NCBI GenBank assembly: GCA_017694995.1
Contig: JADIMB010000001.1
Coordinates: 30,012-94,011 of the forward strand
Direction: 5' to 3'
Source of the DNA: Candidatus Cryptobacteroides faecavium
Lineage (GTDB): Bacteria > Bacteroidota > Bacteroidia > Bacteroidales > UBA932
DNA: 64,000 nucleotides
The stretch's first letter is position 1; every line of letters begins with the position of its first letter. The notes under the pieces are model-generated. The model worked only from the letters and a program-made list of their open reading frames with translations. It had not been told where the DNA came from and did not search any database. The position numbers and the translations under genes are program-made. This document shows positions 4,816 through 29,918 of this stretch, one piece after another.

Positions 4816-4820
4816 TTGAA

Positions 4821-5600
4821 ATGGATTTGACTTTGAAAGTATGGCGCCAGAAAAACGCCAAGACAAAAGGACATTTTGAGACCTATCAGGTCAAGAATAT
4901 ATCTCCTGACAGCTCCTTTCTCGAGATGCTCGACATCCTGAACGAGCAGCTCATACATGAAGGGATGGATCCGGTAGCTGTTGAGAGAGGCTGCCAGAGC
5001 AGCGGCCCTGTATCTTTCGACCATGACTGCCGTGAAGGTATCTGCGGTGCGTGCTCTCTTTACATCAACGGAAGGGCCCATGGACCTGATGACGAGGTGA
5101 CCACCTGCCAGCTGCACATGCGCAAGTTCAAGGACGGTGACACTATCACCATCGAGCCGTGGAGAAGCAACGTCTTCCCTGTGATCAAGGACCTGGTCGT
5201 AGACCGCAAGGCATTCGACAAGATCATGCAGGCCGGCGGCTTCATCTCGGTGAATACCGGCGGAGTCCCTGACGGCAATGTGATTCCTATCTCCCATGAG
5301 ATTGCCGAGGAGAGCATGGACGGTGCAGCATGTATCGGCTGCGGTGCCTGTGTAGCCACCTGCAAGAACGGTTCTGCTATGCTTTTCGTAGCCGCACGTG
5401 TAAGCTCACTCGCGCTTCTTCCTCAGGGCAAGGTTGAGACCGCCAAGAGGGCCAAGGCTATGATCGCCAAGATGGACGAGCTCGGCTTCGGTGCCTGCAC
5501 CAACACCCGTGCCTGCGAGATGGAGTGCCCTAAGCATGTGACTATCTCCCATATCGCACGTCTTAACAGGGAGTTCCTCAAGGCTAAGTTCAAGGATTAG
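4821..5600 (+). CDS. sdhB: Fumarate reductase / succinate dehydrogenase iron-sulfur subunit
   Basis: [18 protein letters not shown] 2Fe-2S motif; [19 protein letters not shown] and [15 protein letters not shown] cluster motifs. Confidence 0.96.
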
Positions 5601-5620
5601 TTTTTCACTTTTCAATATTG

Positions 5621-5651
5621 AAAAGCCGGCTTTCCATGCCGGCTTTTCTTT
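5621..5651 (+). terminator. Intrinsic terminator after sdhB
   Basis: AAAAGCCGGCTTTCCATGCCGGCTTTTCTTT: GC stem plus U tract. Confidence 0.85.
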
Positions 5652-7276: not shown

Positions 7277-7303
7277 TTATCTTGTGGAAAAAATAAGAGA
7301 GAA

Positions 7304-8518
7304 ATGACAAGTGTAAAACTAATGCTGAACAAGGACAGGGCGCACAGAGACGGTACCTATCCTGTTGTATTCCAGATTATCCATTGCCGCAAGAAAAAAC
7401 TCGTGTACACGCCCTACAGCCTTTACAGGGAAGAATTCAACGAGAATACAGGTAAGGTATTTTACGTATCTTCATCTGTGCGTCCCAGAAAAGAAGTTGA
7501 TTTTATTAACAATTCCCTTTCGGAACAATTTGAAAAAATAAGGAAAGTGATTTCCCGCATAGGCAAGGACGGGGAATATTCCGTATGCGACATAGTCTCG
7601 AGATTCAGGGATTGTAAGGGATATACTGATATATTATCATATTTCAGGCTGAAAATGGATATTAAGAGGCAAAACGGATGTTTCGGCACAGCGTCTGCCC
7701 TGAAAAGCACTATGCTCTCACTTTCTTCCTATATAGGCGGAGACAGAGTAAGCATAAACAGAATTGACACCGCCTTTGTAAAGGGATATGAGGAATATCT
7801 CATGAGAAGGGGAATAAGCAGGAACACGATATGCTATTATATGAGGAATTTCCGCTCTGTATACAACAGTGCAGTGATGGAAGGCTGTGTGCCGGATACC
7901 GTTTCACCTTTCCAGTATATATCCTCCAGTCCTTGTGTGACATTGAAACGTGCCATAAATGAAGACTCGTTGAGAAGGCTTCTCGAAGCAGACTTTTCCG
8001 ATGACTTGCACCTTGATATGGCAAGAGATCTTTTCATGTTCAGTTTTTTCAGCAGGGGGATGCCGTTTGTAGACGTGATATTCCTGAAAAAAAGCAATAT
8101 TTCAGATGGTGTAATCACCTACCGGAGACACAAGACAGGACAGAAGCTCCAGGTATCTGTCACTCCTTACATATCCATGCTGATAGACAAATACAGAAAT
8201 CCTTCGGAATATGTCTTTCCGATTCTTGAAGGTACCTCACCTTCGGAGTTGCACGTCTCCTACAGGCTGGCTCTCGAGCGTACTAACAGGAATCTCAAGA
8301 ATGTAGCTTCCAGATGCGGAATTACTCTGTCCCTTACTACATACATGGCCCGTCACAGCTGGGCTACACGTGCTAGGAATCTGGGTATACCGCTTCCGGT
8401 GATAAGTGAAAGTCTTGGCCATACATCCGAGAAGACCACCAGGATATACCTCAAGGAGCTAGACCGCAGGATTCTTGATGAAGCCAATGCTATGGTATCG
8501 GACTTAAGAAGTATATAA
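7304..8518 (+). CDS. Tyrosine recombinase / site-specific integrase (Bacteroidetes type)
   Basis: 404 aa; N-terminal arm/SAM-like region, FFSRGMPFVDV, and C-terminal ARHSWATRARNLGIPLPVISESLGHTSEKTTRIYLKEL (HxxR...H...Y). Confidence 0.95.
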   Translation: MTSVKLMLNKDRAHRDGTYPVVFQIIHCRKKKLVYTPYSLYREEFNENTGKVFYVSSSVRPRKEVDFINNSLSEQFEKIRKVISRIGKDGEYSVCDIVSRFRDCKGYTDILSYFRLKMDIKRQNGCFGTASALKSTMLSLSSYIGGDRVSINRIDTAFVKGYEEYLMRRGISRNTICYYMRNFRSVYNSAVMEGCVPDTVSPFQYISSSPCVTLKRAINEDSLRRLLEADFSDDLHLDMARDLFMFSFFSRGMPFVDVIFLKKSNISDGVITYRRHKTGQKLQVSVTPYISMLIDKYRNPSEYVFPILEGTSPSELHVSYRLALERTNRNLKNVASRCGITLSLTTYMARHSWATRARNLGIPLPVISESLGHTSEKTTRIYLKELDRRILDEANAMVSDLRSI

Positions 8519-8554
8519 AAGTAAGTAAAACTCAATATTTTAAAAAAAACTTCC

Positions 8555-8562
8555 TATATTTG
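8555..8562 (+). promoter_or_regulatory. Candidate -7 promoter box (TATATTTG) just outside the left inverted repeat
   Basis: Perfect TAnnTTTG 5 bp before the left repeat; no clear -33 TTTG seen. Confidence 0.5.
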
Positions 8563-8567
8563 ATACT

Positions 8568-8587
8568 GCTCTATCGTGGATAGAGCG
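8568..8587. repeat. Left 20-bp inverted repeat of candidate invertible cassette
   Basis: GCTCTATCGTGGATAGAGCG, exact reverse complement of 9725-9744; itself a near-palindrome with 8-bp arms and GTG centre. Confidence 0.95.
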
Positions 8588-8780
8588 CATATAAGTATTT
8601 ATTGTTTCACAAAAATCTGTGAACCAGGTAAGTGTGTAGTATTTAACAACAATATCATGTTTCAGCAGCATCATTTTACTCAATATTAAGCACTCAATAT
8701 CCTGCTGCGCCATATGTTGAACTGGTCCGTGCTGAAACAGCCATGAAACTTTCTGTTCACCGATATGGAAAAAATTTGAT

Positions 8781-9707
8781 ATGTTTACTTCTGAACATGA
8801 TCTGAAAAAGGGTGAATGCCCTGTACTGATCAATGCCAACGAACACTGGACATGTATGAATTACAGAGCGGATGTTGGCACCGGATTCAGGATAATGGAG
8901 GCAGGTCCGGGCAGGATTGTCACCATAGAGCCTGACGGTTATTTCCATCTGTTGTTTTTCAAGACAGGGGAATGCAGGTCTGAAAGCATGAGATTCTCCA
9001 GAAGAATCTATTTTCCAGGACAGATGCTACTTCTGCCCAGGAACTATCTTTTCAAGGCGACAGCCGTCTCGGATATGAAAATAGTGGACATGTCTTTTGA
9101 CAAACTCCTGAACAGATGTGACAAGCTGCAGCTGGAAATGCTTGTCCCCATATGCAAGAGTATCGAATATGCAGTACAGCCTGTGACAATGAAAAAGCAG
9201 ATCATCGATTTCCTGAATCTGATTACAGAATGTATCGAATCAGGACTAGGATGCGCCCATTACCATGTGCTGAAACATCAGGAACTGATGCTATATATCA
9301 AAGCATACTATACAAAAGAGGAAATCGCAACTCTCTTTTATCCTGTGATAATGACGCAATCTGATTTCAAAGAGATTATATACAGCCATCCAAACATCTA
9401 TTCGGTAAATGAAATGGCGGACGCGGCAAATATGAACAGGACAACATTCCTGAGAAGATTCAAGGAGGAATTCGGAGAAACCGCGGGTGTATGGATAAAG
9501 AAAAGACTTTGCCAGAATATACTGTATGAATGTTCAAATACAAAAAACACTATAAAAGATATAGTATACATATTCAATTTCTCTTCACAGAGCTCATTCA
9601 ACAGATTCTGCAGAAGATATTTCAGGTGCACTCCGGGGGAACTTGTCACAAGGGTACGCGAAGGGCTGGTTATAAGAGAATACGAATCATGTATGGAGGA
9701 AAAATGA
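8781..9707 (+). CDS. AraC-family transcriptional regulator
   Basis: C-terminal double HTH: YSVNEMADAANMNRTTFLRRFKEEFGETAGVWIKKRL...IKDIVYIFNFSSQSSFNRFCRRYFRCTPGELV. Confidence 0.92.
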   Translation: MFTSEHDLKKGECPVLINANEHWTCMNYRADVGTGFRIMEAGPGRIVTIEPDGYFHLLFFKTGECRSESMRFSRRIYFPGQMLLLPRNYLFKATAVSDMKIVDMSFDKLLNRCDKLQLEMLVPICKSIEYAVQPVTMKKQIIDFLNLITECIESGLGCAHYHVLKHQELMLYIKAYYTKEEIATLFYPVIMTQSDFKEIIYSHPNIYSVNEMADAANMNRTTFLRRFKEEFGETAGVWIKKRLCQNILYECSNTKNTIKDIVYIFNFSSQSSFNRFCRRYFRCTPGELVTRVREGLVIREYESCMEEK

Positions 9708-9724
9708 AAAGGAGGAGAAAATCA

Positions 9725-9744
9725 CGCTCTATCCACGATAGAGC
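9725..9744. repeat. Right 20-bp inverted repeat of candidate invertible cassette
   Basis: CGCTCTATCCACGATAGAGC, exact reverse complement of 8568-8587. Confidence 0.95.
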
Positions 9745-9782
9745 CTGACGGGTTTTGTCTGACTTGTGGAGGTCATGCAATG

Positions 9783-9820
9783 AAAGAGGGAGTCCCGGAC
9801 TTTTCCGGAGCTCCCTCTTA
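9783..9820. terminator. Strong hairpin, probable bidirectional terminator
   Basis: AAAGAGGGAGTCCCGGACTTTTCCGGAGCTCCCTCTT. Confidence 0.65.
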
Positions 9821-9943
9821 TTCTGGAAACAATCCATACTGCAGGTCAGAGTCAGTTCCAGGCCAGACAATTTATGGTGTGTTTATGTGTAAAATGTGTA
9901 TTTTGCAAAGCAAACATCGAACAGTCAGTCCACAGCACTGTCC

Positions 9944-10873
9944 TCAGTCATGGAAGTTTCCAGAAATATACTGTTCGGCTTCTTCGGCAGAGACATCCTT
10001 AAGTACTACTTTCATGGACCTGTCCAGGAGATAGATGGTGGGCGTCGCCCTTATTACATACTCTCTGCTTTCGTACAATCCGGGGGAATGTATCACTGTC
10101 CATCCGCCCGGAAGCTCAGGTAGATGCTTTTCCCACATGATGGTGTCCTTTCCGGGGTATACGGCAAGAATGCCGAGTTTGTGTTCATTCACCGCGTCTC
10201 CTATCGCTTCTGAGCCGGAAATGTATTTTTCCACTCTTTCACATTCCGGACATCCGGGTTCATAGAAAATCAGCAGTACAGCTTTTCCGGACATGCTGTA
10301 CAGGCGGAATGATTCTGTTTCACTGTCTGGAAGATACCCTGAAATGTCGGATGCCGGTGTACCCGGGCGGTTCTTCAAAGCGGATTCAAGCTGCCATACG
10401 GGCCTGATCCTGTACTCTTCCGGTATATCCGGAAGCCCAAGGAAACTTTGCAGGCAAGCTATCCAGATATTTTCATTGCGGTAAGGGGAGTTGGGGTCAT
10501 CGAAATAGGTTTCAGCCAATTCTTCTATGCGCAACAGCATGTCTAGTCTGGATGAAGCTTTCCTGAACATAATGGAAGCAGGTCTTGATATATCACCGGA
10601 AGGAAGCCTGAGCATGATCCAGCTCCATGTAGCGAATGCCTGCTCCAGTGAAGCGGAATCCGTGAGCCATGCTTCATCATCCATATCCACGCTGTCCCAG
10701 TAATGTTCAGTTATCCACTTTATTTTCTGATTACCGGCCAGAGAATCAGGTGGAGAAGGAAGTTCCACCTGTCTTCTGACCTGCTGAGGCCCTGCAGCAC
10801 AGGCCCCAGCATTGAAAATAAACAAAAGGTTTAAAGCGAGTATGATATGTATGGCCGTCATTTTTATGTGCAT
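9944..10873 (-). CDS. Thioredoxin-like (DUF5106-type) secreted protein
   Basis: Signal peptide; AVLLIFYEPGCPECERVEKYI (CPEC) and VIRATPTIYLLDRSMKVV thioredoxin-fold features. Confidence 0.75.
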   Translation of the reverse strand: MHIKMTAIHIILALNLLFIFNAGACAAGPQQVRRQVELPSPPDSLAGNQKIKWITEHYWDSVDMDDEAWLTDSASLEQAFATWSWIMLRLPSGDISRPASIMFRKASSRLDMLLRIEELAETYFDDPNSPYRNENIWIACLQSFLGLPDIPEEYRIRPVWQLESALKNRPGTPASDISGYLPDSETESFRLYSMSGKAVLLIFYEPGCPECERVEKYISGSEAIGDAVNEHKLGILAVYPGKDTIMWEKHLPELPGGWTVIHSPGLYESREYVIRATPTIYLLDRSMKVVLKDVSAEEAEQYISGNFHD

Positions 10874-10887
10874 ATTCAGTTAATGTC

Positions 10888-13800
10888 TTATCTGATGAGG
10901 TCTGCTACACAGCGCACGAATATTTTCTGGGTACCGAAGGCCATATTGTCATTATAGACAGGTGTACCGGAAGTGGTGTTTCCCGTAATGGTTACCTTGT
11001 AACCGCTGTGCCAGTATTTCGAGTCCTGTATGTAATAGCCTGTCCCGTGCTTATGCACCACCAGATGAGGATAAAGCTCCATCGACCTGTTTTCTCCAAG
11101 TTTGTACTCAAACTGCCCTGTCAAGAACATGTCCATCTGGTTTGCAGAGCATATGAATCCTCTGCCGTTTGACTCAAAAGAGTTTCCTACACTCATATGG
11201 TCGTTGAACTTTCCTTCGTTCTCCCTTGCTATTATAGCTGCCATTTCCTCGTCTGTAGGATATCTCCAGTTCAGTCCCTGTACCATGTCCTCAGGATGCT
11301 TCGATGCGTATGTGGCGCAAATATTCTCATACCGTCCGTCTATATATCCTCCTCCGATGGAAGATGTCCCTGAAGTCTCCCTGCTCTGGTTGCGGTCGTA
11401 CTCTATGTTAGACAGAGATGAACCGGTGACGTTCTGCCATGACTTTCCTGTCACTTCCATCGCTTCCGGACTTGCTACTATGGTTTTTCCTCTTACCTCA
11501 AGCACTTCTCCTACCCCGGACTGGAATATGGTGGATTTCAGTTCAGGAAGCGGGGAACTTCCGTTGTATATGGATATGTCTATCTGGTCGTTTTTCTGTG
11601 AAGGGAACAAGGCGTTCCTGTTGTTTGCCGCAGAGAAAGTTATGAGCCTTGGGAACAATGCTTTGTATACGGTGAATTCAACCGTCCCGGCATTGTCCGC
11701 ATTATCGGCTATGTTGCTCTGCCTTATGGTAACAGGTGAGGGAAGGGTCTGTGTAACGGCTCCTTTTTCTGTTGAGACAGTGTTGTCATATGCACAGTAT
11801 GTCCCGTATCCCATCAAGGTGACAGTGCCTCTGGTACCCAGATACGGGAAAGTCTGTTTTCCTTGCTCCTTTTCTGCTTCCCTTTCAATAGTGATTTTCA
11901 GCTTGTGGCCTTCAGATCCAGGATTGGCGGCAATGTTCACTTTCTGATCAGAGCGGAAAGCCAGGCGCGGCCTTGTGTAGCCGTATTGTTGCACTGACGA
12001 GGCATCTTTCCATGAACCGTCCCTCGGGTCCTTCCACTGCAGTTTCAGTGTCCTGCTGCCATAGCTGTCATAGGCCGGGAAAGCGATAGCGGACTGTCCT
12101 GAAGGCTGGAACTTATGTACAGACCCCTGCTGTACCCCGGAAGCGTCTACAAATCTCATATCTATCTCCGTCACATTCACACTGCCGCTGAATACAGGCC
12201 CCGCATGTCCTGCCGCATCAGTTTTTCCAGGCATGGCACCTGCGAAAAAGCTGTTTGCATATCCGTCCGCGTCATCTGTCCAGGAGACACTCTCCGGTGC
12301 TTCGACATAGTATTTGTACTGGTCTATAACGAGAGTCCGGGTCTCTCCTCCGGATGAGGCTGTAATTCCTGATGCCCCGTATCTTACGGCTACCTCACGG
12401 GAGAATTTTTCCCCAGGGGCGGAGCCGTATTCGGATATTGCAGGGATATCTATTGTGAGCTTCTGTGCCGAATATGCGGCAGCTGACTTCACTTCAGACA
12501 CATTCCCGCCTGCTGAAACTGTCCAAGCGGCATTTGTCTTTGCGCTTACTACAGCATTGCCTCCGCTTGGAGGAAGTACTGTGACACCTTGATCCTCAGG
12601 AATTATCGATGCCTCATCAAAATATGCAGGAGTTGTACGCAGGAGAGTGACTTTCGTTTCACTCTGTGATACTCCTTGCGGCAGACCGGAGGCATTTGTA
12701 CTGAAAGTTATGTAAGTGGAATGCTCTGTCCCGGCTGCATCAGGGGTATCCGCGTTCGTCGATCCAGCGCTCCTGCCGGTATAGTTGCGCGGATTGAATG
12801 TTATATATCTGCCATCTTCATTCTGTTCACTTTCTCTGACAATATAGATGGTGTTATACGTATCTTCACCCAGCCCTCCTTTCATGGTATTTCTGTCGGG
12901 AGTAACGCTTGTGCACACCCTGTTCCAGTCTGTAGTGCTGTTTCGGTCTTCGGCCATTTTGACATTGGCATTGGTGCTTATTTTCAGCTTTATGCTTCCT
13001 GCTTCCCTTGTATCCCCGAAATCATGTTCTGTCCAGTCTGTGGATATGACAGGGGCCGGTGCCTTCTGGTTTATCTTGAACGGTGTATTGTCAAATTCGG
13101 GATCGTCGCTTGCAGGGTGGAACAGGAATGTGCGCGGCCGCCATGAATTGTTTGGTTCGAAACTGGCAGACAGTACTGTTTCTCCTGACCTGTACGGATC
13201 TTTTGAAGATCCTTTTTTCACTGTTACCTGGTCAGTATCTGTATTTTGATCCTGGGCATTCTCAATGGTGTATTTATAAATCCACCAGTCTACTTCCGAT
13301 GTGACACGGATTTCGAAAGCCTTGTTTCCTGAAGCGGCCACATCATCCAGGGTAATTACCCCGAGGGCGAGGTTTGTGGCGAGCTGCTCTACGGTGACAG
13401 TACGGGCTTCTATCCTTCCAGTGCCGTCCTGCCCGTCATCAGCTATATATATCGTAATGAGACTGGAAAGAATGCCGCTTACATCAGATGTACGTTCCTG
13501 AGGCAGGAGGGAGAATACTTTTGTTACAGTATTTGTATTTTCATCTGTCTGTGTATCATCAAGCTTCAGTATTTCTGTATCTTTCCATTTTATGTCACCT
13601 TCCAGAGACTTGACTGTGAATTTCACTTCTTTGTTGCGAGGCTGCACAGTCACTGTGATTTTTTTTCTGTGCTCTCCGGGGTTTTTCATGAATATCAAAG
13701 AAGTGGGCGTGACTTCTATATTCAGCAACACATCTGCTGACTGGTTCACATAGATTTTCTTTGTAAGGTTTCCTGACTTTATGTAGAAGAATCCTTCACG

Positions 13801-15258
13801 TATGTCATTTATGTCGGCATAGCCTCCGTTGCCTCCTGAAAGTGCAGGCCATCCGTTCACTGACACTTCAAGTTTTGTGCTTCCTGCATTACCTTTTTCA
13901 GTGCTGAATTTTATCCAGTCATAGAGCGCTGAACCGCTGTTTCCTGAGGGTTTCTCTATTGTCCATTCCTGTGACGATGTCACTGAAAGGATGCTTGTAG
14001 AAGCTTCGCGGTAGAAGTCCATGGTGCTCTTGTCCACAGAAAGTCCCTGCTGTCCGTAATCAGCGTCTATATCGGATTCCGACCATTCAAGTACATCGAA
14101 GGTAATGTCTTTTGTAGCATTCTTGAATGCACTTTCCTCGTCAGGGTACCCAGGTCCTGATACAGAGGTGATATTAATACGGTATCTGTTGTTCCTCAGC
14201 AGATTGTAATATCCACCGTCAGATTTGGACATATCTATTCTGTAGTACGATTTTTCCTGTCTTCCGTCATATTTTCCAGCCACGACGACACATGCCCTGC
14301 TTTCTGGGTCTTTTGCGTCAGAGCCGTTGTAGTTTGACGCTTCACCGACATATATCTGACGGAAGAAAAAGTCGGTGCCGTCTGCATTTTCAGCCTCATG
14401 ATGTATTCCGGATTCCATACCAGTCACGGTCAGGCCCCCGCTTAATAAAGTCGGGGCAATGACTTTCTTGGGCTCGTTGTCAACCCAGTTATTTCCTCCT
14501 ATATTCTTGTTCAGAGGTATCAGAAGAGACTTCTGCGGGATGTTATACACTATTGCCTCTGTGAGGATGAAGTTGTCAAGCCCGTTTACTGCCTGAGAGC
14601 CTTCAGCATCCATGTCTGAGTCTGTCCCTGGAGATGACAGCTTGAAGTCCAGTCCTATGTCAATCCTGGCGACAGAACGGAGAGGATGCAGTTCTTTTTT
14701 GACTACACTTGTCTGTGAGCTGACGGTCTCCCTGAATTCAGTGTACATCGGGAGATAGCGTGGTGTGGAGGTGTCCCATCTGCTGCCAGTATCGAAAGAA
14801 AGCAAGTCAATGAACGTTGCTTTCGCTGTTCTGTTATCTATTTTCCCAGACGCCAGCAGCATATCCACTTCATTCGACGCGTTGGCCATCACGACGAACA
14901 GCTGCTGTCCGTCGGCTTTGGGAAGTACGGCCTGCCATGTATCCGGCCCGCTTTTGCTGGCTACAGTCTTGCCCGAATAATATTCGTTTCCTTCCGAATG
15001 TTTTTCAGGACCGAATACAATTATGTCCACGGTCTTGATTTCGCTTTCCTGCGCAGGGGTCAGCGAGCGGGTGGCTGTGCCGGCCTCGGCAGCTGTAAGC
15101 TTGAATGTCACGAGCATTCCCTCCGGGAAGTCTCCTCCAGTATCTATTGTGTTGTCCGGTATCCTGCCATCCGCTTCCAGGTTTTCCCTGGTGCAGGAAG
15201 ACAGGAGTGTCATGGCAGCTGAAAGAGCTGCAACCAAGATATATATTCTTTTTCTCAT
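10888..15258 (-). CDS. Large fimbrial adhesin-like lipoprotein (DUF4906-type N-terminal region, BACON-like repeats)
   Basis: Lipoprotein signal MRKRIYILVAALSAAMTLLSSC; N-terminal TGGDFPEGMLVTFKLTAAEAGTATRSLTPAQESEIKTVDIIVFG fimbrillin-like region; BACON-like repeats; C-terminal IFVRCVADLIR. Start 15258 preferred over 15297. Confidence 0.75.
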   Translation of the reverse strand: MRKRIYILVAALSAAMTLLSSCTRENLEADGRIPDNTIDTGGDFPEGMLVTFKLTAAEAGTATRSLTPAQESEIKTVDIIVFGPEKHSEGNEYYSGKTVASKSGPDTWQAVLPKADGQQLFVVMANASNEVDMLLASGKIDNRTAKATFIDLLSFDTGSRWDTSTPRYLPMYTEFRETVSSQTSVVKKELHPLRSVARIDIGLDFKLSSPGTDSDMDAEGSQAVNGLDNFILTEAIVYNIPQKSLLIPLNKNIGGNNWVDNEPKKVIAPTLLSGGLTVTGMESGIHHEAENADGTDFFFRQIYVGEASNYNGSDAKDPESRACVVVAGKYDGRQEKSYYRIDMSKSDGGYYNLLRNNRYRINITSVSGPGYPDEESAFKNATKDITFDVLEWSESDIDADYGQQGLSVDKSTMDFYREASTSILSVTSSQEWTIEKPSGNSGSALYDWIKFSTEKGNAGSTKLEVSVNGWPALSGGNGGYADINDIREGFFYIKSGNLTKKIYVNQSADVLLNIEVTPTSLIFMKNPGEHRKKITVTVQPRNKEVKFTVKSLEGDIKWKDTEILKLDDTQTDENTNTVTKVFSLLPQERTSDVSGILSSLITIYIADDGQDGTGRIEARTVTVEQLATNLALGVITLDDVAASGNKAFEIRVTSEVDWWIYKYTIENAQDQNTDTDQVTVKKGSSKDPYRSGETVLSASFEPNNSWRPRTFLFHPASDDPEFDNTPFKINQKAPAPVISTDWTEHDFGDTREAGSIKLKISTNANVKMAEDRNSTTDWNRVCTSVTPDRNTMKGGLGEDTYNTIYIVRESEQNEDGRYITFNPRNYTGRSAGSTNADTPDAAGTEHSTYITFSTNASGLPQGVSQSETKVTLLRTTPAYFDEASIIPEDQGVTVLPPSGGNAVVSAKTNAAWTVSAGGNVSEVKSAAAYSAQKLTIDIPAISEYGSAPGEKFSREVAVRYGASGITASSGGETRTLVIDQYKYYVEAPESVSWTDDADGYANSFFAGAMPGKTDAAGHAGPVFSGSVNVTEIDMRFVDASGVQQGSVHKFQPSGQSAIAFPAYDSYGSRTLKLQWKDPRDGSWKDASSVQQYGYTRPRLAFRSDQKVNIAANPGSEGHKLKITIEREAEKEQGKQTFPYLGTRGTVTLMGYGTYCAYDNTVSTEKGAVTQTLPSPVTIRQSNIADNADNAGTVEFTVYKALFPRLITFSAANNRNALFPSQKNDQIDISIYNGSSPLPELKSTIFQSGVGEVLEVRGKTIVASPEAMEVTGKSWQNVTGSSLSNIEYDRNQSRETSGTSSIGGGYIDGRYENICATYASKHPEDMVQGLNWRYPTDEEMAAIIARENEGKFNDHMSVGNSFESNGRGFICSANQMDMFLTGQFEYKLGENRSMELYPHLVVHKHGTGYYIQDSKYWHSGYKVTITGNTTSGTPVYNDNMAFGTQKIFVRCVADLIR

Positions 15259-15272
15259 GTCTAAAATCTTAT

Positions 15273-18200
15273 CTAATCTGCCAGATCGGCTACGCATCGT
15301 ATATACACTTTGTATTGTCCATATATCGGTTGAGGGACTTTATTATAATTAGGGTCCGATTGCGTACCGGTCGACTGGAAGACGTACGCCTGTTCGTCAA
15401 AGTAATATCCTGAATCTGTAATGTTCTTTCTGTTATTGTTGTGCACTACGTATAAAGGCATTATTTTCAATCCTCCGGAATTGAAGTCAGCCACGAATTC
15501 AGCCGTGAGGAACGCTATCTTGTCATTCTTGATATGGCACTCGAAGCCTCCGTTATTGAGATTGATATCGGTTTTATTTGAGAAGTGTCCAAGGCCTTCA
15601 TCGTCAATGATGGCTTTCATTTCCGCAACGGTAGGAAGACGCCATTTCAGCGGTTTGACTTTCTCGCTTCCGTCAAGGGATGTATCAGTCTTGTATCTTT
15701 CACATATCGAAGTTCCGTCATTTGTGAGGAAGCCGGATATATTCTGGCCTTTGTCTTTACTGTAATTGGCTGGTTTTCTCCAGCTTCCACCCTGGTCACA
15801 ATTAAGATATTCCCACATGTTTCCCGGTGAGGTACCGGCAATCTGATACCACGTATGATGATTATATAAATCACTTATATTTACAGCTTTAGGTGCGGCT
15901 ACTATCGGTTTTCCACCTACAGTCAGTACTTTTCCTATACCTTGCTGGTAGATTTTGTTGCCGAAATTATTGGTGGCTGAGTTTGTGATATTCACTTTAG
16001 TATTCCCTGTATCATTTGCAGTAGCCCTGAATGCTATTCTGCGGTTGAACAGCGATTTGGTATTTATGCTTATGTTTGTTGTGTATGAACTGACTTTATT
16101 GTTGTCAAGCACAATGTCTTGCGACATCACACTGAATTCCTTGGCGCTGTAGTCACGATTCGTTGCACTGGCGTAGGTAGCATATGGAACGACTGTGATT
16201 TTACCTGTTGTGCCGAGATATGGACCCAGTTTTCCGCTACCGGGATTATTTGCGGATTCCCGTCCGATAGTGAACTGTATGTTTCCACCGTCTCTGTTCA
16301 GTTCTTGCGGGACGAATGTGATAGAGGACGGTATCTGGTAGCCGTACTGGGTCACTGCATTCCCCACCTGCGTCCACTGGCTGTTCCTCGGGTCCTTCCA
16401 CATGACGATTATACTCCGGTTGCCCCATTTATCCTGAACACCGGTGTTCAAGGTGGTGCTGTTGCCTTTTCCGTCCAGTGTGATATCTACGGGTCCGGCT
16501 ATATCACCGTTAGACTCAGTCTGGTAGCGGAGTTTCACGCTGATTTTTTTGTCTGGGGCATATACATTTTCTCCGAATTTTAGAGTGACAGCATGAGAAC
16601 CGTCTCCACCGTAGGCTATGTTGTTGGGATATGAGTCTTTGTCCTGCCATGACACGGAAGGGGCTGTGACATAGTATTTCAGCTGGCTTAGTGCCGAACC
16701 TTGAACCTGGGTCCCTCCTGAGTTGTTTCCATCAGGCACATTGTAATAAAAATTCACCTGCAGGCTCTTCTTTTCTCCTGGTGTCGAGCCGTACTCTCCG
16801 ACGGCAGGTACAGTCACAGCCGATTCTTTTGTCTGATGGCTGTAGTCAGATGCGCCATAGACACCGGACTGTGCTCCCCCTACTGTGGCTCTCCACCGGG
16901 CATTTGTCCATGAAGACAGAGTAACAGGGCCTCCGTAAGGTGATATAGCCCCGTCTATGTTGCCGTTTCCAGCCACTGCAGTATGGTCGTCAAAGAAGGC
17001 AGGTGTCTCACGCTGTATAGTGAGTGTGGCCGATTTCTGTCTGTCATCTGAAAGGCCTGCCGCCGCTGTGGTGAATACATACTGCACTTCCTTGACAGAT
17101 CCTGCTGCTTTGGGACCGTACAGGTTTGATGATGTCTTCCTGTCTTCGTAAGTCCTCGGACGGAAAGTGACATATTTATCACCAGCTTCTTCATTGACTG
17201 TATATTGCAAGGTGTAAGTATCTTTTCCCACTCCTGAGTTGAATTCTGACCGTGAAGGAGAGACACTGTAGTTCACCAGGTTCCAGGCATTTTCGTCATA
17301 GCCTTGTGCAAAAGCTCCTTTGACCTTCGCATTAGTGTGTATCCTGAGTTTCAGTGTATCGTCTGCGCTCAGTTTGTCAGCCGTGAAACGCAGCGTGTTC
17401 CTGCCGAGTGAAATAAATGGTTCAGGGGCTTCCTGGGTGATTTCGAATCCGCTGTCCTGTACAAATTCATCCGAGCTGCTTCCTGCATGGAAGGTGAATA
17501 CGCGCTGCTGCCAGGAGTTGTTAGGCTTGAATCTGACATTCAGGGTCTGCTCTCCGGACTGGAACGGATTGACATCGTTTTTGCCGCTGATATCTTCCGC
17601 CTGGTCGGTAGGGTTTTTATTCAGGTGGATGGCATTTATCCACCATGATACAGGCGATTCCAGCTTGATGCCGAAAGACTCGCTTCCTTCTGCAGGGACT
17701 ACCTGAGCCGGGTCAAGTCTGTTCAGCGCAATATCTGTAGCCAGCTGCTGGATAGTCAAGGTCCTGGCCTCGATGCGGCCTGTGTCTCCTTTTATGTATA
17801 TGGTGACCATTCCTGCCAGTATACCGGAAACAGTCCCCCCTTGGGATGCTTTCCTGTCGGCCGGCTGGAATGATATGGTGTATGTCTTTGTATTAGAAGC
17901 GGCATCTTCTGATCCTGTGTCTTTTCCGTCTCCATATACCCGGAAAGCTTCACTGAACGGGCTGTAACCATCCACTTTTCCCATATCATTCTCTTCGGAT
18001 ACTGTAAGGGTAGCTGTTGACGGCTGGACAGTCACTGTTATGCTCGCTTTGCTTGCTGTCTTCCTGAATATCAGGGTAGCAGGTGTCACTTCAATGTTCA
18101 GAAGCTCGTCTGCGGACTGTGTGATATTTATCCTCTGGGTCAGTGCGCCTGATTTTATGTAAAAGAAGCCTTCACGGGTGTCTTCGATATTCTTGCTGCT

Positions 18201-19637
18201 GTATTCTTTCACAGATATGCTGGCTACATCGGCACTGTCAGTCTTGACGGCAGCATTTGCATCAGGAAGTATTATCCAGTCGAAAGGGCCTCCTTCTGAT
18301 TCCGGGGCGCTTACCGCCGTCCATCCCTGAGGATGATCGGTGTATATTGAAATAGCACTTGCGGATGCCTGTCTGTAGAAGCTGTGAGAAACCTTGTCCA
18401 CAGAAAGCTGGTATCGTCCGTCATGGACGATGTTGTTCATCTCTCCTCCTTCTTCTATGGACTTTATGTTGTACGTGATGTTTACAGGACCGGAATTGAA
18501 GGCTTCTTCTGCAGTGGAGTAGCCGTTTCCGGTTATGCCTGTGATATTCACACGGTAGCGCCTGTTGCGCAGTATATCATGGAATGTAGTGGCGGTACCG
18601 TCATCATGGCTGACCATGTCTATCCTGTAGAAGGATTCGGCTCCCTGCCTGTATTTCCCTCCGATTACTATGCATGCCCTTTGGGAAGGCTGTTTCGGTG
18701 TGCTTCCGTCATTGTTGGCCGCTTCTCCGGTGTATATCTGCCGGAAAATGTAATTGCCTCCGGATGCAGGTTCAGGTGTGTATTCTATTCCGGAGCTGAA
18801 TCCGGGCGTTGCTAGTCCTCCGTTTGCGATTGTAGGATTCGTTGCCTGTCCCGGCTCGGTACTGCCCTGTCCGGACCAGGCTATATTGTCTGATCCGGGT
18901 ATAATCATGGATGTCTGTGGTATATTGTATACTATGGCTCTTGTAAGGGTGAAGTCTGCAAGTCCGGATGCAATGCCGCTTGTCGCTCCTGGATCCTCGC
19001 TGAGATTCAGGCCGATGTCTATCCTTGCCACTGACCGCAGGGTTTTAAGAGTCCATGGCGTATTGTTGTCATAGTCGATATATTCCTTTTTTTCTGTCCA
19101 CATTGGAAGATGCCGTGGGGAAGAGGTGTCCCAGGCTTTTGAGGTGTCGAATGAAAGAGAGTTGATGAATTCGTTTTTCGAAGTCTGGCCATTTACGTTT
19201 TCAAGGGCTTTCTCTACTTCCTCAGAAGCGTTCAGCACGAATACATAGCAGTGCGGGTTTCCTGTACCTGTAGATGAGGCGTCTGTCTTGGTCAGGACAG
19301 CCTGCCAGAGCTGGCCGGTGCCTTTTGTGGCTGTTGTATGTCCTATATATTTCCCGTCGTTTCCGGTTTCCGTCGTGAATACTATGATATCTACGGTGTT
19401 TATCTCTTCCTCCTGTGCCGGAGTCAAGGATCGTGTGGCTGTCACCAGGGAAGATGCATCGAAACTGAACCTTACGAGCATGCCTTCTCCGAAGTCTCCT
19501 CCTGTCTGTATTGTACTGCCATTGCTGCCGCCTGGGGTGTCAAGCTCCTCACGGGTACATCCGGAGAAAAATCCAATCGACACGGCGGACAGCAGTGCAG
19601 TAAGGACAGCTAGTGTTTTTTTGCTGCAGTATTTCAT
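15273..19637 (-). CDS. Large fimbrial adhesin-like lipoprotein, paralog of the 10888-15258 product
   Basis: Shares N-terminal TGGDFGEGMLVRFSFDASSLVTATRSLTPAQEEEINTVDIIVF and C-terminal LKWRLPTVAEMKAI...YIRCVADLAD with its neighbour. Confidence 0.75.
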   Translation of the reverse strand: MKYCSKKTLAVLTALLSAVSIGFFSGCTREELDTPGGSNGSTIQTGGDFGEGMLVRFSFDASSLVTATRSLTPAQEEEINTVDIIVFTTETGNDGKYIGHTTATKGTGQLWQAVLTKTDASSTGTGNPHCYVFVLNASEEVEKALENVNGQTSKNEFINSLSFDTSKAWDTSSPRHLPMWTEKKEYIDYDNNTPWTLKTLRSVARIDIGLNLSEDPGATSGIASGLADFTLTRAIVYNIPQTSMIIPGSDNIAWSGQGSTEPGQATNPTIANGGLATPGFSSGIEYTPEPASGGNYIFRQIYTGEAANNDGSTPKQPSQRACIVIGGKYRQGAESFYRIDMVSHDDGTATTFHDILRNRRYRVNITGITGNGYSTAEEAFNSGPVNITYNIKSIEEGGEMNNIVHDGRYQLSVDKVSHSFYRQASASAISIYTDHPQGWTAVSAPESEGGPFDWIILPDANAAVKTDSADVASISVKEYSSKNIEDTREGFFYIKSGALTQRINITQSADELLNIEVTPATLIFRKTASKASITVTVQPSTATLTVSEENDMGKVDGYSPFSEAFRVYGDGKDTGSEDAASNTKTYTISFQPADRKASQGGTVSGILAGMVTIYIKGDTGRIEARTLTIQQLATDIALNRLDPAQVVPAEGSESFGIKLESPVSWWINAIHLNKNPTDQAEDISGKNDVNPFQSGEQTLNVRFKPNNSWQQRVFTFHAGSSSDEFVQDSGFEITQEAPEPFISLGRNTLRFTADKLSADDTLKLRIHTNAKVKGAFAQGYDENAWNLVNYSVSPSRSEFNSGVGKDTYTLQYTVNEEAGDKYVTFRPRTYEDRKTSSNLYGPKAAGSVKEVQYVFTTAAAGLSDDRQKSATLTIQRETPAFFDDHTAVAGNGNIDGAISPYGGPVTLSSWTNARWRATVGGAQSGVYGASDYSHQTKESAVTVPAVGEYGSTPGEKKSLQVNFYYNVPDGNNSGGTQVQGSALSQLKYYVTAPSVSWQDKDSYPNNIAYGGDGSHAVTLKFGENVYAPDKKISVKLRYQTESNGDIAGPVDITLDGKGNSTTLNTGVQDKWGNRSIIVMWKDPRNSQWTQVGNAVTQYGYQIPSSITFVPQELNRDGGNIQFTIGRESANNPGSGKLGPYLGTTGKITVVPYATYASATNRDYSAKEFSVMSQDIVLDNNKVSSYTTNISINTKSLFNRRIAFRATANDTGNTKVNITNSATNNFGNKIYQQGIGKVLTVGGKPIVAAPKAVNISDLYNHHTWYQIAGTSPGNMWEYLNCDQGGSWRKPANYSKDKGQNISGFLTNDGTSICERYKTDTSLDGSEKVKPLKWRLPTVAEMKAIIDDEGLGHFSNKTDINLNNGGFECHIKNDKIAFLTAEFVADFNSGGLKIMPLYVVHNNNRKNITDSGYYFDEQAYVFQSTGTQSDPNYNKVPQPIYGQYKVYIRCVADLAD

Positions 19638-19729
19638 TGTTTTATATTGTTTTATGTCGGTTGATACAGAAATTGTCTATTTTTTTTCCAGTTATTTTTC
19701 CGGTCTTATGTCGTATGGATGCCGGATTG

Positions 19730-21172
19730 TCAAAGCTCTACCGGGATGTCGTTGTCTTCCCAGTCGCGGACCTTGAATGTTATCCCGATTTCTATGTTGC
19801 TGTCCGGGTCCGGGACTGAAGGAGAGTCTATCGCACCGTCTTCAGTAGGGTAGCCCGCTCCGGAACACGATGTAATCTTCACGTCAAACCATCTGTTCCT
19901 CTGTACACTGGTCGCAGGTGTCTGGGACTGGTCCTCGAGAAATATCCTGTACCAACACTCGAAGTTCCGGTACGGCACGGATTCCCACAATTCCGTATCA
20001 AAGAACGGGTCGGCTTTAAGTGCAGGATCCTCATAATAATAGTTCACTGAGGCTTCTGAGGCATCCTTACGCCATAGCCTCCAGTATGTCCTATACGTCT
20101 GTCCGTCTACCGACTCGTCCGGAAGACTGTGTCTGTTTCCATCCAGGTCAAAGTAGCTTCTGCTTGATTCATCCCATCTCCATGGGTTCTGCCCGTTCCC
20201 GTCATACAGGACAATAGGACGGAAAGCGGCCTTGACAAGCAGTCCAGTGGTATTTTCCGGTGTGTTCACAGCTACGCGGTTTTCTGTCACATAACTTGTA
20301 TATGTTCTGTATGGCTGGCTGTCGTTATAGTCAGGGGCGTCAGAGTATTTGCCCGTATGGTCAGGGAGGGAATAGAGAGGGGTTGTCCATATCCCATCCG
20401 TACCGGTGCGGGGAAGAAGATAGAACTCGTTGGCTACTGAAAGCGCTTTATAGGAAGGAGTTTTTTCGATATAACCGTACGGGGACATGTCATTGAGGTT
20501 TTCCCCAAGGGCGAGAGATACTCTGGAAATTAAACGTTCAAGGCTGATTTCCAAGATATTCTCCGTATCCGGCTGCAGAGTGACCTGCCTGATGCTGCTC
20601 ATCGGTACAGTGGCTGCATCGTCCGGAAACAGGGTCGAGACTCCTCCTGGAATGGTGCACACTGCCGCCTTGAAGTCAGATATAGGTGTCACCCCTAAAG
20701 TAACTTCAGGATATGTCAGCCATTCAGGTCTGTCTGTACCGCCCTGGGATCCTGAAGTGCCGAAAATCTCCAGGTTTGCGAGTACAACCATGTCTTTTCT
20801 TCCGGAAAGTGCTTCTTCTGTGGAAATGGTCACGCTTCCGTCTGCCGCAGGCAGCAGAGATGATACCGGGCCTACATCGGTCCCGTTGCTGTCCATCCCG
20901 AACATTGTCTCCAGCAGACCTGTAGACGAGTTAAAGAGGTATATCCTGAAATCAGTGATATTGAAATCCATATTCCCAGGATTTCCGTTATATGTGCTTC
21001 CCGCGAAAACTGTTACGGATATTCCGGAGCGCGTTTCCGCATCTGGAGGATTGCCTATGTCATTCCCTGGTGTATGCTCGCTGCGGGAGCAGCTGTATGA
21101 AAGTATGAGAAGGAGTGGCAGCAGCCACAGAAAAAACTTATGGTCCATATGCTTAAAATCCATGACATTCAA
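19730..21172 (-). CDS. Minor fimbrial subunit-like lipoprotein
   Basis: Lipoprotein signal, fimbrillin-like MDFNITDFRIYLFNSSTGLLETMFG, C-terminal RNRWFDVKITSCSGAGYPTEDGA; operon context. Confidence 0.65.
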   Translation of the reverse strand: MNVMDFKHMDHKFFLWLLPLLLILSYSCSRSEHTPGNDIGNPPDAETRSGISVTVFAGSTYNGNPGNMDFNITDFRIYLFNSSTGLLETMFGMDSNGTDVGPVSSLLPAADGSVTISTEEALSGRKDMVVLANLEIFGTSGSQGGTDRPEWLTYPEVTLGVTPISDFKAAVCTIPGGVSTLFPDDAATVPMSSIRQVTLQPDTENILEISLERLISRVSLALGENLNDMSPYGYIEKTPSYKALSVANEFYLLPRTGTDGIWTTPLYSLPDHTGKYSDAPDYNDSQPYRTYTSYVTENRVAVNTPENTTGLLVKAAFRPIVLYDGNGQNPWRWDESSRSYFDLDGNRHSLPDESVDGQTYRTYWRLWRKDASEASVNYYYEDPALKADPFFDTELWESVPYRNFECWYRIFLEDQSQTPATSVQRNRWFDVKITSCSGAGYPTEDGAIDSPSVPDPDSNIEIGITFKVRDWEDNDIPVEL

Positions 21173-21200
21173 ATGCTTAAAATGTTTTGTCCTGCTGCTG

Positions 21201-22169
21201 TCACACTCCTGTATTCTGGTCTTTGACTACCCAGTCATTTACCTGGACAAGTACCAGCCCGGACAGGATGTCTGTCTTAAACTTGAGGTCGTAATGCTCT
21301 ATCTTTGCCAGATCTTCGTCGGTCTTGATTGACGGGTCTTTGCAGATAAGTCCTGTCAGTGATTCGTCAAAGACGACATCCCCTGTTCCGGACAGGCGTA
21401 TTGTCACTCTGGAATCATCCCCGATGTAGAGTGACTGGGTGCGTAAGGTATTATGCCAGCCGCTTTCTTCTGACCTTGAGACCGTAACCGTATGTCCCTG
21501 TTCCAGAGTGGAGAGCGGTTCATTTGGGTTTTCGGGAAGATATGTTATGGCTATCGGGGAGGAATCATCGGCCGGCGTATTGTCAAAACGGTAGTATCCA
21601 TTGGATGCGGACAGGCTTATGTCATATTCCCCGGGACCGGCTATTTGGATATGTATGTCGTGTGTGTCCTGGGTCATATCCATGCTGCATGATGCGATGC
21701 GGCTCATAGGAACCTCAAGCGAAGCCTTTCCCCACAGCACAGCAGGCATGGTATGGCTGACTGTCTTGCCGCTTCCGTTGTCCTCGCATACGGTCTGGAG
21801 GACTGCAGAGTCAATATTCCCTGTGGAGCCAAAAGTATGGCTTGTCTCCTTCACGTTGGCCCAGCCTACTATGGTGTAGGATCCGGCCGGGAGAAGCAGC
21901 ATCTTCTCCGCCACCATCCCATGTGGACCTGCGGTCATTTCCCCTGCAGTCACATGGCATGTCTCTACGAGCGTACCGTCTGCGTCATAGACGAAGAAGT
22001 CCATATGCTCCATTTTTTCAGGGAGCCTGTCCTCTCCTGTCTCGTTCCGGGTAAAGGTGCAAAGTATGTCCACTCCCGGAGCCGGACATTCGGAAAGGTC
22101 TTCTTTCGTGCAGCCGGACAGTACGTTTAGAAAGGCTGCTATGGCCAATATGAAAATAAGTCTCTGCAT
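21201..22169 (-). CDS. FimB/Mfa2-family fimbrial anchor subunit
   Basis: Lipoprotein signal; EHMDFFVYDADGTLVETCHVTAGE...LLLPAGSYTIVGWANVKE. Confidence 0.85.
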   Translation of the reverse strand: MQRLIFILAIAAFLNVLSGCTKEDLSECPAPGVDILCTFTRNETGEDRLPEKMEHMDFFVYDADGTLVETCHVTAGEMTAGPHGMVAEKMLLLPAGSYTIVGWANVKETSHTFGSTGNIDSAVLQTVCEDNGSGKTVSHTMPAVLWGKASLEVPMSRIASCSMDMTQDTHDIHIQIAGPGEYDISLSASNGYYRFDNTPADDSSPIAITYLPENPNEPLSTLEQGHTVTVSRSEESGWHNTLRTQSLYIGDDSRVTIRLSGTGDVVFDESLTGLICKDPSIKTDEDLAKIEHYDLKFKTDILSGLVLVQVNDWVVKDQNTGV

Positions 22170-22307
22170 TGTCTTTGTCCAATAGTTGATACTGTCTTCT
22201 GTTTCTATTTTCCGTCCCCGGTGCGGCGGAGCAGATCTGCTTTTTCAAGTCTGCAGATTCCTCACCTGCACCGTGGAACGGAAAAGTATTTTACAAGGGG
22301 GAGTATT

Positions 22308-23558
22308 TTAAAGGTCTCCGACACCGGTGCTCTGGTCTACTGTAGTCCAGTCTGTAACAGTCACATTTACTGTAAGTTCTGCTGTTTTTCCTATAGGGTC
22401 TGTAGGCTCTCCGCCGCCATCTCCGCCGCCAGGTATGACACCGCCTTCTGTGTTAGACCCAGCTCCGTTGGCATGTGTGATATTGACGTTGATCAAAGTG
22501 TTTCTTGGGATTGCATATCTTTCTGAGAGGCTTGTAGCATCCTGTTTTCCCGTAATGTAGACACGGTAGTATGATATACCGTTAGTATATTCAACAATTT
22601 CTTTTTCCTGACCTTGTACTGTAGGTTTTACCCTATAATAAAGAGCGTCGAATACCCCTGTGGCTTTGGTTCTTATACGGTAAAAAGTCGCGCCTTTTGT
22701 TCCTGCTTGAGGATTGCTTCCATCGGCATCCACTGTCTGGTTCGGTGTGAATTTACCCTTGACTATTATGTATGTAGTATTGCCGAGCTGTGGATCTTTG
22801 ACTTTATTTTCTGATACGTATACAGGATTGGCTGAAAATGTTTGATCTCCAGTTGCAGTACTTACATAGTTGGCTGCTGCAGTGCTTTCATAAAGAGGTG
22901 TGGACCATGCTGAAGACGGATAAGAAAAGTAGTACATTTTCTTGGCTATGTTCATTGCTTTGTATGTTATGTCTGTCAGGGTTCCGGCAGCATCCGGGTC
23001 AGCAGTGATGGCTGATGATTTCGCAGCTATCTTTGCGGCAAGTCTTATTAGGTTGACTTCTACAGAAGAGCCTCCTTCTGTGAGATTCACCGTGCTGTGG
23101 CCTGACATAGAAAAATCTTCTGTACCTCCGGTGGTACGCTGGGCGATTGCTGTTATGTCCTGTATTTCGAGCACGTCCTTCATGAATTGTGTCTCACTGT
23201 ACCCTACTTTGAATTTCGCGTCATAGCTATCAAGGTTTGCAAGTACATAGACGCTTTTCTGGCCTGTGGTCACGGTTGCTGTGGCTTTTTTCTGGGCCAC
23301 CACGAAATCGGCTACGGCTTCCATTGTTCCAAGGTCATTGAATATGTACGCCTTTGCATTTGTCAGTTTCTGCTCTTCGGTTGTCTGGGAGACAGCCTTG
23401 GAAAACGGTTCGGAGTTCGCGAAATCCAGCGAGATGTTCATCGTTGTCAGAGTTCCTGGCTGGATAGGAGTCTCCTCCTTCTGCTGCAATTCCTGTTTGT
23501 TGCATGCCGTGGTGAAAATCAGCGCGGCGGATGCCAGATAAATTAGGTGTCTTTTCAT
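22308..23558 (-). CDS. Mfa1-family major fimbrial subunit (fimbrillin)
   Basis: MKRHLIYLASAALIFTTACNKQE signal; TNAKAYIFNDLGTMEAVADFV, VYVLANLDSYDAKFK, NGISYYRVYITG. Start 23558 inferred. Confidence 0.85.
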   Translation of the reverse strand: MKRHLIYLASAALIFTTACNKQELQQKEETPIQPGTLTTMNISLDFANSEPFSKAVSQTTEEQKLTNAKAYIFNDLGTMEAVADFVVAQKKATATVTTGQKSVYVLANLDSYDAKFKVGYSETQFMKDVLEIQDITAIAQRTTGGTEDFSMSGHSTVNLTEGGSSVEVNLIRLAAKIAAKSSAITADPDAAGTLTDITYKAMNIAKKMYYFSYPSSAWSTPLYESTAAANYVSTATGDQTFSANPVYVSENKVKDPQLGNTTYIIVKGKFTPNQTVDADGSNPQAGTKGATFYRIRTKATGVFDALYYRVKPTVQGQEKEIVEYTNGISYYRVYITGKQDATSLSERYAIPRNTLINVNITHANGAGSNTEGGVIPGGGDGGGEPTDPIGKTAELTVNVTVTDWTTVDQSTGVGDL

Positions 23559-23587
23559 GAGTAAATAATTTAAATTAAGTGATATTG

Positions 23588-25030
23588 TTAATGCTGTTTC
23601 CTGATAATTTCCACTTCTTCCAGATGATGGTACTTGTCCCATTCACGGAGCATTTCCAGGTTGTCTGCCGCTTCTTCCATGTCTGGTTTCAGCTCCAGGG
23701 CTTTCATAAAGTATTCTTCGGCCAGTGCGGTGTCTCCTTTTTTCCAGAAGCAGACTCCACGCAGATTGTACGACTCTGCCTCAGGAAGTGGAAGGTCCCT
23801 TTTCTCAAGGATTTCCAGTGCCTTGTCGTAGTTCCCGGACGAGGCTGCATCTGCGGCTTCGTTGAAACGTATTGCTATACGCTGGTTTATGTCCGAACGG
23901 TTGATGACATCGAAGAATAGCTGCAGGTATCCGGCAGATCTCTGCCGAGGGAAAATCTCTTCAAGGAGGTAGGTATATGCCTCACCGAGTCCTTTCAGAC
24001 GTACTTTACGTGCTTCCATATCCGGCTCTCCGGTAAGGATGTTCAGCACAGAGTCCCTCATTGGTGTGAGAGTGTCTTTCTGCACCTGTCTCAGAAGGTC
24101 GTCCCAGTCTTCTCCGCCGCAGATGATTTCCACTATCGAGTTCTCTGGCCTCACTTTCGCGTCAATCCCGGCAAGGACTGACCTGGCTCTTTCCGTGGCA
24201 AGCCGTTCATTCAGCTCCCTGCTTCCTTCCACGGACGCGTATCCGGTCATGATTACTTTCCTCAGACGCACGTCAGGGTTCTCGCTGATTGCCTTCAGGG
24301 CATCTTCGACAAGGGACATTCTTTTACGGTTGTCCGAAAGGTTCGGGTCCAGATAGCTCGACCCTTGCCTGAACTGGAATGCCAGGGCGGCAGACCTGTC
24401 TGCCCCGTCTTCCTGTGAGGCGCTGATGAAAGAGTTCTTTTCAGCCATTTCTTCTATAAGGAATTTAGGGACAGGGATTTCGCTTATCTTCGGAGAATAG
24501 TATACAGGCGGGAAGTATATTTGCTGAGATGATGTCAACGGAGTTCCTTCAAGTCCTGTCTGCTTGTCGCAGCATCCCTCGTACCAGCTCAGTGTCTCCA
24601 ATTCGAGGTGTTCCATCCACGGTTCGTATGCCCATGTCTCCGTATAGAAAATGCTCTCACCTGCCTTAAGGTATATCGCACCTGTTTCAGAAACCCTTGG
24701 ACGGGAACCGGAGAGGATGTCGGAACGCCTGTCTTTCAGTTCTTTATAAGGACGTTCTATGCGGAATGTCCGGAGTGCTTTGGTTGTACCTGAGTTTGTC
24801 GCCTGCGGTCTTACGACGAATGTCCTGTCGGCGGGAAGACCTTTTTTCACTGTCTTGAGTGTAAATGAGATCCTCACGCTGTCGTCATCCCCCAGTTCCA
24901 TATGTACATGGCTTATCTCCGCGTGCCCGATTCGTACCGGACCGTCGTCTATTTTCACATTTCCTGCAGATGTCGCACAGGACAGAAACAGGATTGATGT
25001 CGCAATGGTGACTGTCATCTTATTTTTCAT
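23588..25030 (-). CDS. DUF3868-type fimbrial-operon protein with OmpA-like and TPR regions
   Basis: N-terminal DUF3868-like region; VIMTGYASVEGSRELNERLATERARSV OmpA-like; C-terminal TPR-like YNLRGVCFWKKGDTALAEEYFMKALELKPDMEEA. Confidence 0.8.
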   Translation of the reverse strand: MKNKMTVTIATSILFLSCATSAGNVKIDDGPVRIGHAEISHVHMELGDDDSVRISFTLKTVKKGLPADRTFVVRPQATNSGTTKALRTFRIERPYKELKDRRSDILSGSRPRVSETGAIYLKAGESIFYTETWAYEPWMEHLELETLSWYEGCCDKQTGLEGTPLTSSQQIYFPPVYYSPKISEIPVPKFLIEEMAEKNSFISASQEDGADRSAALAFQFRQGSSYLDPNLSDNRKRMSLVEDALKAISENPDVRLRKVIMTGYASVEGSRELNERLATERARSVLAGIDAKVRPENSIVEIICGGEDWDDLLRQVQKDTLTPMRDSVLNILTGEPDMEARKVRLKGLGEAYTYLLEEIFPRQRSAGYLQLFFDVINRSDINQRIAIRFNEAADAASSGNYDKALEILEKRDLPLPEAESYNLRGVCFWKKGDTALAEEYFMKALELKPDMEEAADNLEMLREWDKYHHLEEVEIIRKQH

Positions 25031-25049
25031 GGTTGTCCCTCCCGGAATT

Positions 25050-25661
25050 TCATTTGATCACGAATATTAGTGTCACGGCTGCTTTCGTCGGGCCGAAATA
25101 GTCTTTCTTCTTGTGCTCTATATGCCATCCGCATTTCTGGCATGCGTACCGGTCGTATTCAAGCCGTGCGTATCCTCCGCCTATTGTGAATTCAAAGCTC
25201 CATCTGGGAGACATTACCCAGTGATATCCGTATGAGATTCCTGCTCCTGCCGCCCAGCCCTCATGGCGGTATTGCCAGCTTCCTTTCCCGAAAAGCATAG
25301 GGAGCTCGTGTCCTCCTATGTTGTACATACTGTATAGTCCGTGGACTCCCAGGAAATGCCCTGCAAACCTGCTGCAGGTCCACCATCTGAACTCAGGCTG
25401 TACGGCCCAGTGCACAGCTTTCTTGTTCCCGTTTTTTTTACCGTCCAGGTTCCATGGGTTGTATCCGCCTGAAATGTCCAGAGTTGTCTTTTTCCCGAGA
25501 CCGATTTCCATTCCCAGATTCGGAGTGTATGTGTAAGCTCCCTGGAGCAGGTTTGTTTTGATTCCGATTACTTGGGCTGAGATCTTTCCCGACATAGACA
25601 TGGCTGCTATTGCCAGTACCAGTGACAGGACTGTGCGGCTGCCTTTTTTCAGGATTTTCAT
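25050..25661 (-). CDS. DUF3575-type outer membrane protein
   Basis: GIKTNLLQGAYTYTPNLGMEIGLGKKTTLDISGGYNPWNLDG...KKAVHWAVQPEFRWW; start at MKILKKG (25661). Confidence 0.85.
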   Translation of the reverse strand: MKILKKGSRTVLSLVLAIAAMSMSGKISAQVIGIKTNLLQGAYTYTPNLGMEIGLGKKTTLDISGGYNPWNLDGKKNGNKKAVHWAVQPEFRWWTCSRFAGHFLGVHGLYSMYNIGGHELPMLFGKGSWQYRHEGWAAGAGISYGYHWVMSPRWSFEFTIGGGYARLEYDRYACQKCGWHIEHKKKDYFGPTKAAVTLIFVIK

Positions 25662-25851
25662 ATGATTACACACTATATTGATTTTTACGCTGCAAAGTTG
25701 CACTGTCTTGCCGGATATGTTTTTACCATTTTGTGTCTTTATTTTGCCATTGTGTTCCTTGCGCTTTATAAGCCAGAAGTTCAGCTGTCTATTTCAGTTT
25801 CTTTTTATATTTCGTGATGTCTTTTGTGCTTGATTTAATCTGAATTGAGTT

Positions 25852-29498: not shown

Positions 29499-29918
29499 AT
29501 GATACTCTACTATTATGAAGATATTGATTTCCAGTTCAGAAACAAGACACGGACAAACCGGTGGCTCAGACTTGTTGCTGAAAGCGAGATCAAGAGGATA
29601 GGGGACATATCTATTATATTCTGTTCGGACAACTATATTCTGGATGTCAACCAGAAGTATCTCCAGCATGACTATTTTACTGATATCATTACATTTGACT
29701 ATTGCGAGGGAGACAGGCTTTCGGGTGACCTTTTTATAAGTGTGGACAGTGTGAGGGAAAACAGCATCGAGTACGGCACTGACTTCGCTGACGAGCTCAA
29801 CCGGGTCATTGTCCACGGCCTTCTGCATCTTATAGGGTACGATGACCATACTGAGGCTGATGTCGCTGTTATGAGAAAAAAGGAAAATTATTATCTTTCT
29901 TTGAGGGAACTTCTCTGA
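29499..29918 (+). CDS. ybeY: Endoribonuclease YbeY (rRNA maturation)
   Basis: Metal motif [33 protein letters not shown]. Confidence 0.95.

Follow-up and report, generated by a model that had tools for sequence, protein, structure and literature searches.

An AraC-type regulator gene in a predicted invertible segment next to a tyrosine recombinase and a fimbrial operon of an uncultured Bacteroidales bacterium

The region considered in the current analysis, referred to as the window, is a stretch of 64,000 nucleotides from Candidatus Cryptobacteroides faecavium (GCA_017694995.1, contig JADIMB010000001.1, positions 30,012 to 94,011 of the forward strand). A complete gene of an AraC-type regulator is enclosed here by two perfect inverted repeats of 20 bp, and the gene of an intact tyrosine recombinase (TR) ends 49 nt before the left repeat. 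The features of the locus are as follows.

7304..8518, plus strand, tyrosine recombinase gene, predicted invertase
8555..8562, plus strand, TATATTTG, a match to the Bacteroidales -7 box TAnnTTTG, 5 nt outside the left repeat and pointing into the segment, with no clear -33 box
8568..8587, plus strand, left inverted repeat GCTCTATC-GTG-GATAGAGC-G, predicted recombination site
8588..9724, no strand assigned, predicted invertible segment of 1137 bp
8781..9707, plus strand, AraC-type regulator gene, the payload of the segment
9725..9744, minus strand, right inverted repeat, predicted recombination site
9784..9819, no strand assigned, strong hairpin between the cassette and the convergent fimbrial operon, probable bidirectional terminator
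9944..25703, minus strand, fimbrial operon (DUF3575, TPR protein, fimbrillin, Mfa2, fimbrillin, two adhesins of about 1450 aa, thioredoxin-like), predicted target
25721..25755, minus strand, two direct repeats ACAAAATGGTAAAA / ACACAATGGCAAAA 21 bp apart upstream of the fimbrial operon, candidate AraC operator (weak)

The TR comprises Arm-DNA-bind_5, Phage_int_SAM_5 and Phage_integrase (2e-12) domains, that is, an arm-binding, a core-binding and a catalytic domain. Its active-site residues fit the R-K-[H/Y]xxR-[H/W]-Y pattern, with the catalytic R, K, R, GH and Y present and with the family-typical YxxRHSW variant, in which a Tyr that is shared by most of its congeneric homologues replaces the first His of HxxR. 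The AraC-type protein has been assigned an HTH_18 domain (1.1e-16). The adjacent fimbrial operon, in which Mfa2, Fimbrillin_C, P_gingi_FimA and DUF3575 have been recognised, is transcribed towards the cassette. A group II intron (5737-7276, plus strand; Rfam D1-D4 5737-5840 and 3' domain 7186-7276) lies between an sdhB-like gene and the recombinase and ends 27 nt before the TR start. Its maturase is split in one frame by an in-frame stop into RT (5857-6741) and maturase-domain (6814-7182) ORFs. Elsewhere in the window two copies of a parS-like palindrome TGTTCCACGTGGAACA (31495-31510 and 32097-32112) are found near the end of and just after an mnmG-like gene (29918-32047).

The sequence GCTCTATCGTGGATAGAGCG (8568-8587) and its exact reverse complement (9725-9744) are the only two copies in the window when up to 3 mismatches are allowed (0 expected), and the only two in the 2.33-Mb genome, which is a MAG-like assembly of 139 contigs and about 85% complete. 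The 20-mer is absent from 199 sampled congeneric genomes and was also not found in the viral contigs searched. The longest exact inverted repeat, with arms up to 4 kb apart, in 30 Markov surrogates of the window was 16 bp. Each repeat is an 8-bp palindrome around an asymmetric GTG/CAC centre. Another short sequence, ACTCAATAT, occurs three times around the cassette (8530, 8678 and 8692; 7 in the window, 0.5 expected) and is a possible binding site.

Homologues of the TR (31-41% identity) have been identified in 14 of the 200 congeneric genomes searched, the window's own included. In 9 of 15 such loci an inverted repeat of 13-23 bp begins within 150 bp downstream of the TR stop, while random placement gives 0.36 on average. 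Most of these repeats are built like those of the window, with short palindromic arms around an asymmetric centre of 3-5 bp, as exemplified by TCAATCTTCT-GTG-AGAAGATTGA and CTCTT-GTT-AAGAG. They bound segments of 150-236 bp, of which 7 of 9 contain the TAnnTTTG box, and are followed downstream by NusG-like, sugar-transferase or DUF3575 fimbrial genes. These look like ordinary invertible promoters ahead of capsule or fimbrial genes. In two congeners (loci L057, 6469-7615, and L055, 1040-3142) the inverted repeats enclose the recombinase gene itself, so the enzyme would flip its own gene. A further TR homologue (locus L065), with RP instead of RH in its active-site motif, lies inside a near-perfect inverted repeat of about 120 bp (1-121 / 1294-1414) and is possibly a mobile element or an assembly artefact.

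AraC homologues were collected from order-wide and family-wide searches, a scan of named genomes and the genus. A search with the single AraC protein revealed no close relatives in the genome contigs and viral contigs examined. Among 58 non-identical loci with enough sequence context, 7 have a related TR within 6 kb, and in all 7 the AraC gene is enclosed by inverted repeats with a palindromic core, which is the case in none of the other 51 (Fisher p about 3e-9, window included and not corrected for relatedness). The seven are the window, two genomes of the window's genus (G748 and G811), Dysgonomonas sp. ZJ279, D. alginatilytica, a genome with the same genus label as Dysgonomonas sp. HGC4 (G331) and Parabacteroides sp. 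PF5-6. Two more, HGC4 and Parabacteroides sp. 52, have the repeats near contig ends. In Parabacteroides sp. 52 two diverged AraC loci (L140 and L149) with nearly the same repeat arm lie on separate contigs, one of which ends inside the AraC gene, and these are possibly multi-copy cassettes. Repeats around AraC in two other loci (L120 and L074) have no palindromic core and no TR and have been treated as chance or unrelated. Each repeat of the window folds as a stable hairpin, and it could therefore be argued that the repeats are two RNA hairpins or regulator-binding palindromes unrelated to recombination. However, only one of the four readings scores as terminator-like, and the exact inverted identity including the asymmetric centre and the strict coupling to TR presence make this explanation most unlikely.

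The AraC tree requires 6 changes of cassette state, at least 5 of them forced by well-supported branches, so the cassette arose or was lost repeatedly and the design is likely favoured repeatedly. A single origin of all the AraC cassettes is rejected by this tree but is unresolved for the TRs, among which that of the window is a long branch not firmly placed with the other AraC-cassette TRs.

Alignment of G331 with Dysgonomonas sp. HGC4 (AraC 82% identical) gives collinear flanks on both sides (3065-5820, 7220-7795 and 9102-13497 of locus L077), while the repeat-bounded AraC segment (5875-7168) aligns in the opposite sense with breakpoints at the repeats. Two related ORFs of 320-346 aa without Pfam match lie between the TR and the AraC cassette in both genomes (L077, 3139-5415). 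A segment of the same design as that of the window is thus found in opposite orientations in two sister species of another genus. Across species AraC is codirectional with the TR side in the window, G748, G811 and HGC4 and opposed in G331, ZJ279, D. alginatilytica and PF5-6. The right arm of HGC4 is partly decayed, so that copy may be locked. In the window only one orientation is assembled and, without read data, no inverted molecules were seen, which would also fit a locked relic of an inversion switch. This is considered unlikely, as the arms are identical over 20/20 bp and the TR is full length with its catalytic residues.

Inverted repeats together with a recombinase, and the small number of close AraC relatives in this genus, could also suggest that the repeats are the ends of a transposon or cassette that carried in the AraC gene. 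No target-site duplication is present at the ends, the linked enzyme is a tyrosine recombinase situated outside the repeats, and in the sister species the same segment is turned round in place and not moved. Linkage of AraC to the fimbrial operon is also seen without repeats. This origin is therefore regarded as very improbable.

Fimbrial linkage is seen in a congener without TR or repeats (G747), which carries the nearest AraC relative of the window (52% identity) immediately after the orthologous fimbrial operon. The TR-bearing cassettes of the other species also adjoin fimbrial genes. In the window the operon is convergent and is separated from the cassette by the hairpin at 9784-9819 (about -29 kcal/mol, z -4.4 and -3.6), so AraC must act in trans. 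The target is inferred from this synteny, and the two direct repeats upstream of the operon resemble an AraC operator but are weak evidence.

The only TAnnTTTG box from 8400 to 9900 of the window is the one outside the left repeat. Exact boxes outside the arm and facing in, within 60 bp of it, are also present in ZJ279, PF5-6 and Parabacteroides sp. 52 (chance 1.5-4% each) and in G811, which amounts to 5 of 9 cassettes. In G811 the AraC start codon is 22 nt inside the arm, leaving no room for an internal promoter. These observations suggest a fixed promoter and a moving gene, although the box of the window lacks a -33 match and four of the nine cassettes have no exact box within 60 bp of the arm, two of these having a one-mismatch TATATTTA. 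Similarity between the AraC promoter region of G747 and the outer promoter of the window was not significant. The 193-bp leader inside the segment could carry AraC's own promoter, in which case inversion would not switch AraC simply, but would mainly change what lies at the edges of the segment, such as read-through into neighbours or antisense RNA to the recombinase, as in conventional invertible promoters. Leaders of 135-230 bp exist in several cassettes, and in G811 (locus L186) the right part of the segment also holds a TATTTTTG promoter-like box facing the fimbrial operon, so that AraC and operon might switch together there. In the window, however, the leader has no TAnnTTTG box, only 17 bp separate the AraC stop from the right arm, and the fimbrial operon is convergent behind the hairpin, so no edge promoter can serve it. 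This alternative is possible but unlikely.

Based on these comparisons, the locus is interpreted with reasonable confidence as a site-specific DNA-inversion switch. The TR is predicted to recombine the two repeats and to flip the 1137-bp segment with the complete AraC gene in front of a promoter that is probably fixed outside the left repeat. In the orientation of the window this promoter would read AraC in the sense direction (predicted ON) and after inversion the antisense strand (OFF), and AraC would then act in trans as an activator of the neighbouring fimbrial operon, whose start lies 16 kb away at 25.7 kb. The sequence-only reading, which had proposed a phase-variable regulatory cassette with the fimbrial operon as candidate target, is confirmed as to the repeats and genes and supported as to the interpretation, with inversion in this species, the activity of this TR on these repeats, the promoter, the polarity and the target being inferred.

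We consider it somewhat more likely than not that Bacteroidales have repeatedly evolved a phase switch whose moving part is the complete gene of a trans-acting fimbrial activator placed behind a fixed promoter, a 'regulator inverton' class assembled several times from ordinary AraC genes and TR/repeat modules, in which one small inversion heritably controls a distant operon and possibly a wider regulon. Inverton surveys mostly look for short promoters that flip in cis, and a class of this kind would let one inversion set the state of unlinked genes and would be missed by promoter-based annotation. It would also provide a directly testable switch for type V pili in Bacteroidales.

Invertons, TR-driven fimbrial switching and inversions that move genes are already known (PMC12632263, PMC11892184, PMC9820224), while no description of an inverton with a complete AraC-type regulator as its payload was found in nine searches of open papers, subscription papers not being covered. 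The invertible promoters of Bacteroidales with a neighbouring tyrosine recombinase (Weinacht 2004, cited in PMC12632263; inverton survey PMC11892184) share with the present locus the inverted repeats next to a TR and, as inferred here, the surface-structure and fimbrial target and reversible switching. There the promoter moves and the genes stay, whereas here a complete regulator gene would move and the promoter appears to stay, and the segment is 1.1 kb instead of about 0.2 kb. In E. coli fimS/FimB/FimE and Proteus MrpI (PMC9820224) a tyrosine recombinase flips DNA to switch fimbriae, as is predicted here, but by promoter inversion acting in cis on the fimbrial operon, in contrast to the action in trans through an activator suggested here, and the fimbriae are unrelated to the type V pili. 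In the known gene-moving inversions whole genes are moved relative to a fixed promoter, as is inferred here, but these are described as moving genes into expression loci, while here a single trans-acting regulator would be switched by orientation. The AraC-type regulator at the end of the type V pilus operon of G747 represents the same regulator and operon without recombinase or repeats.
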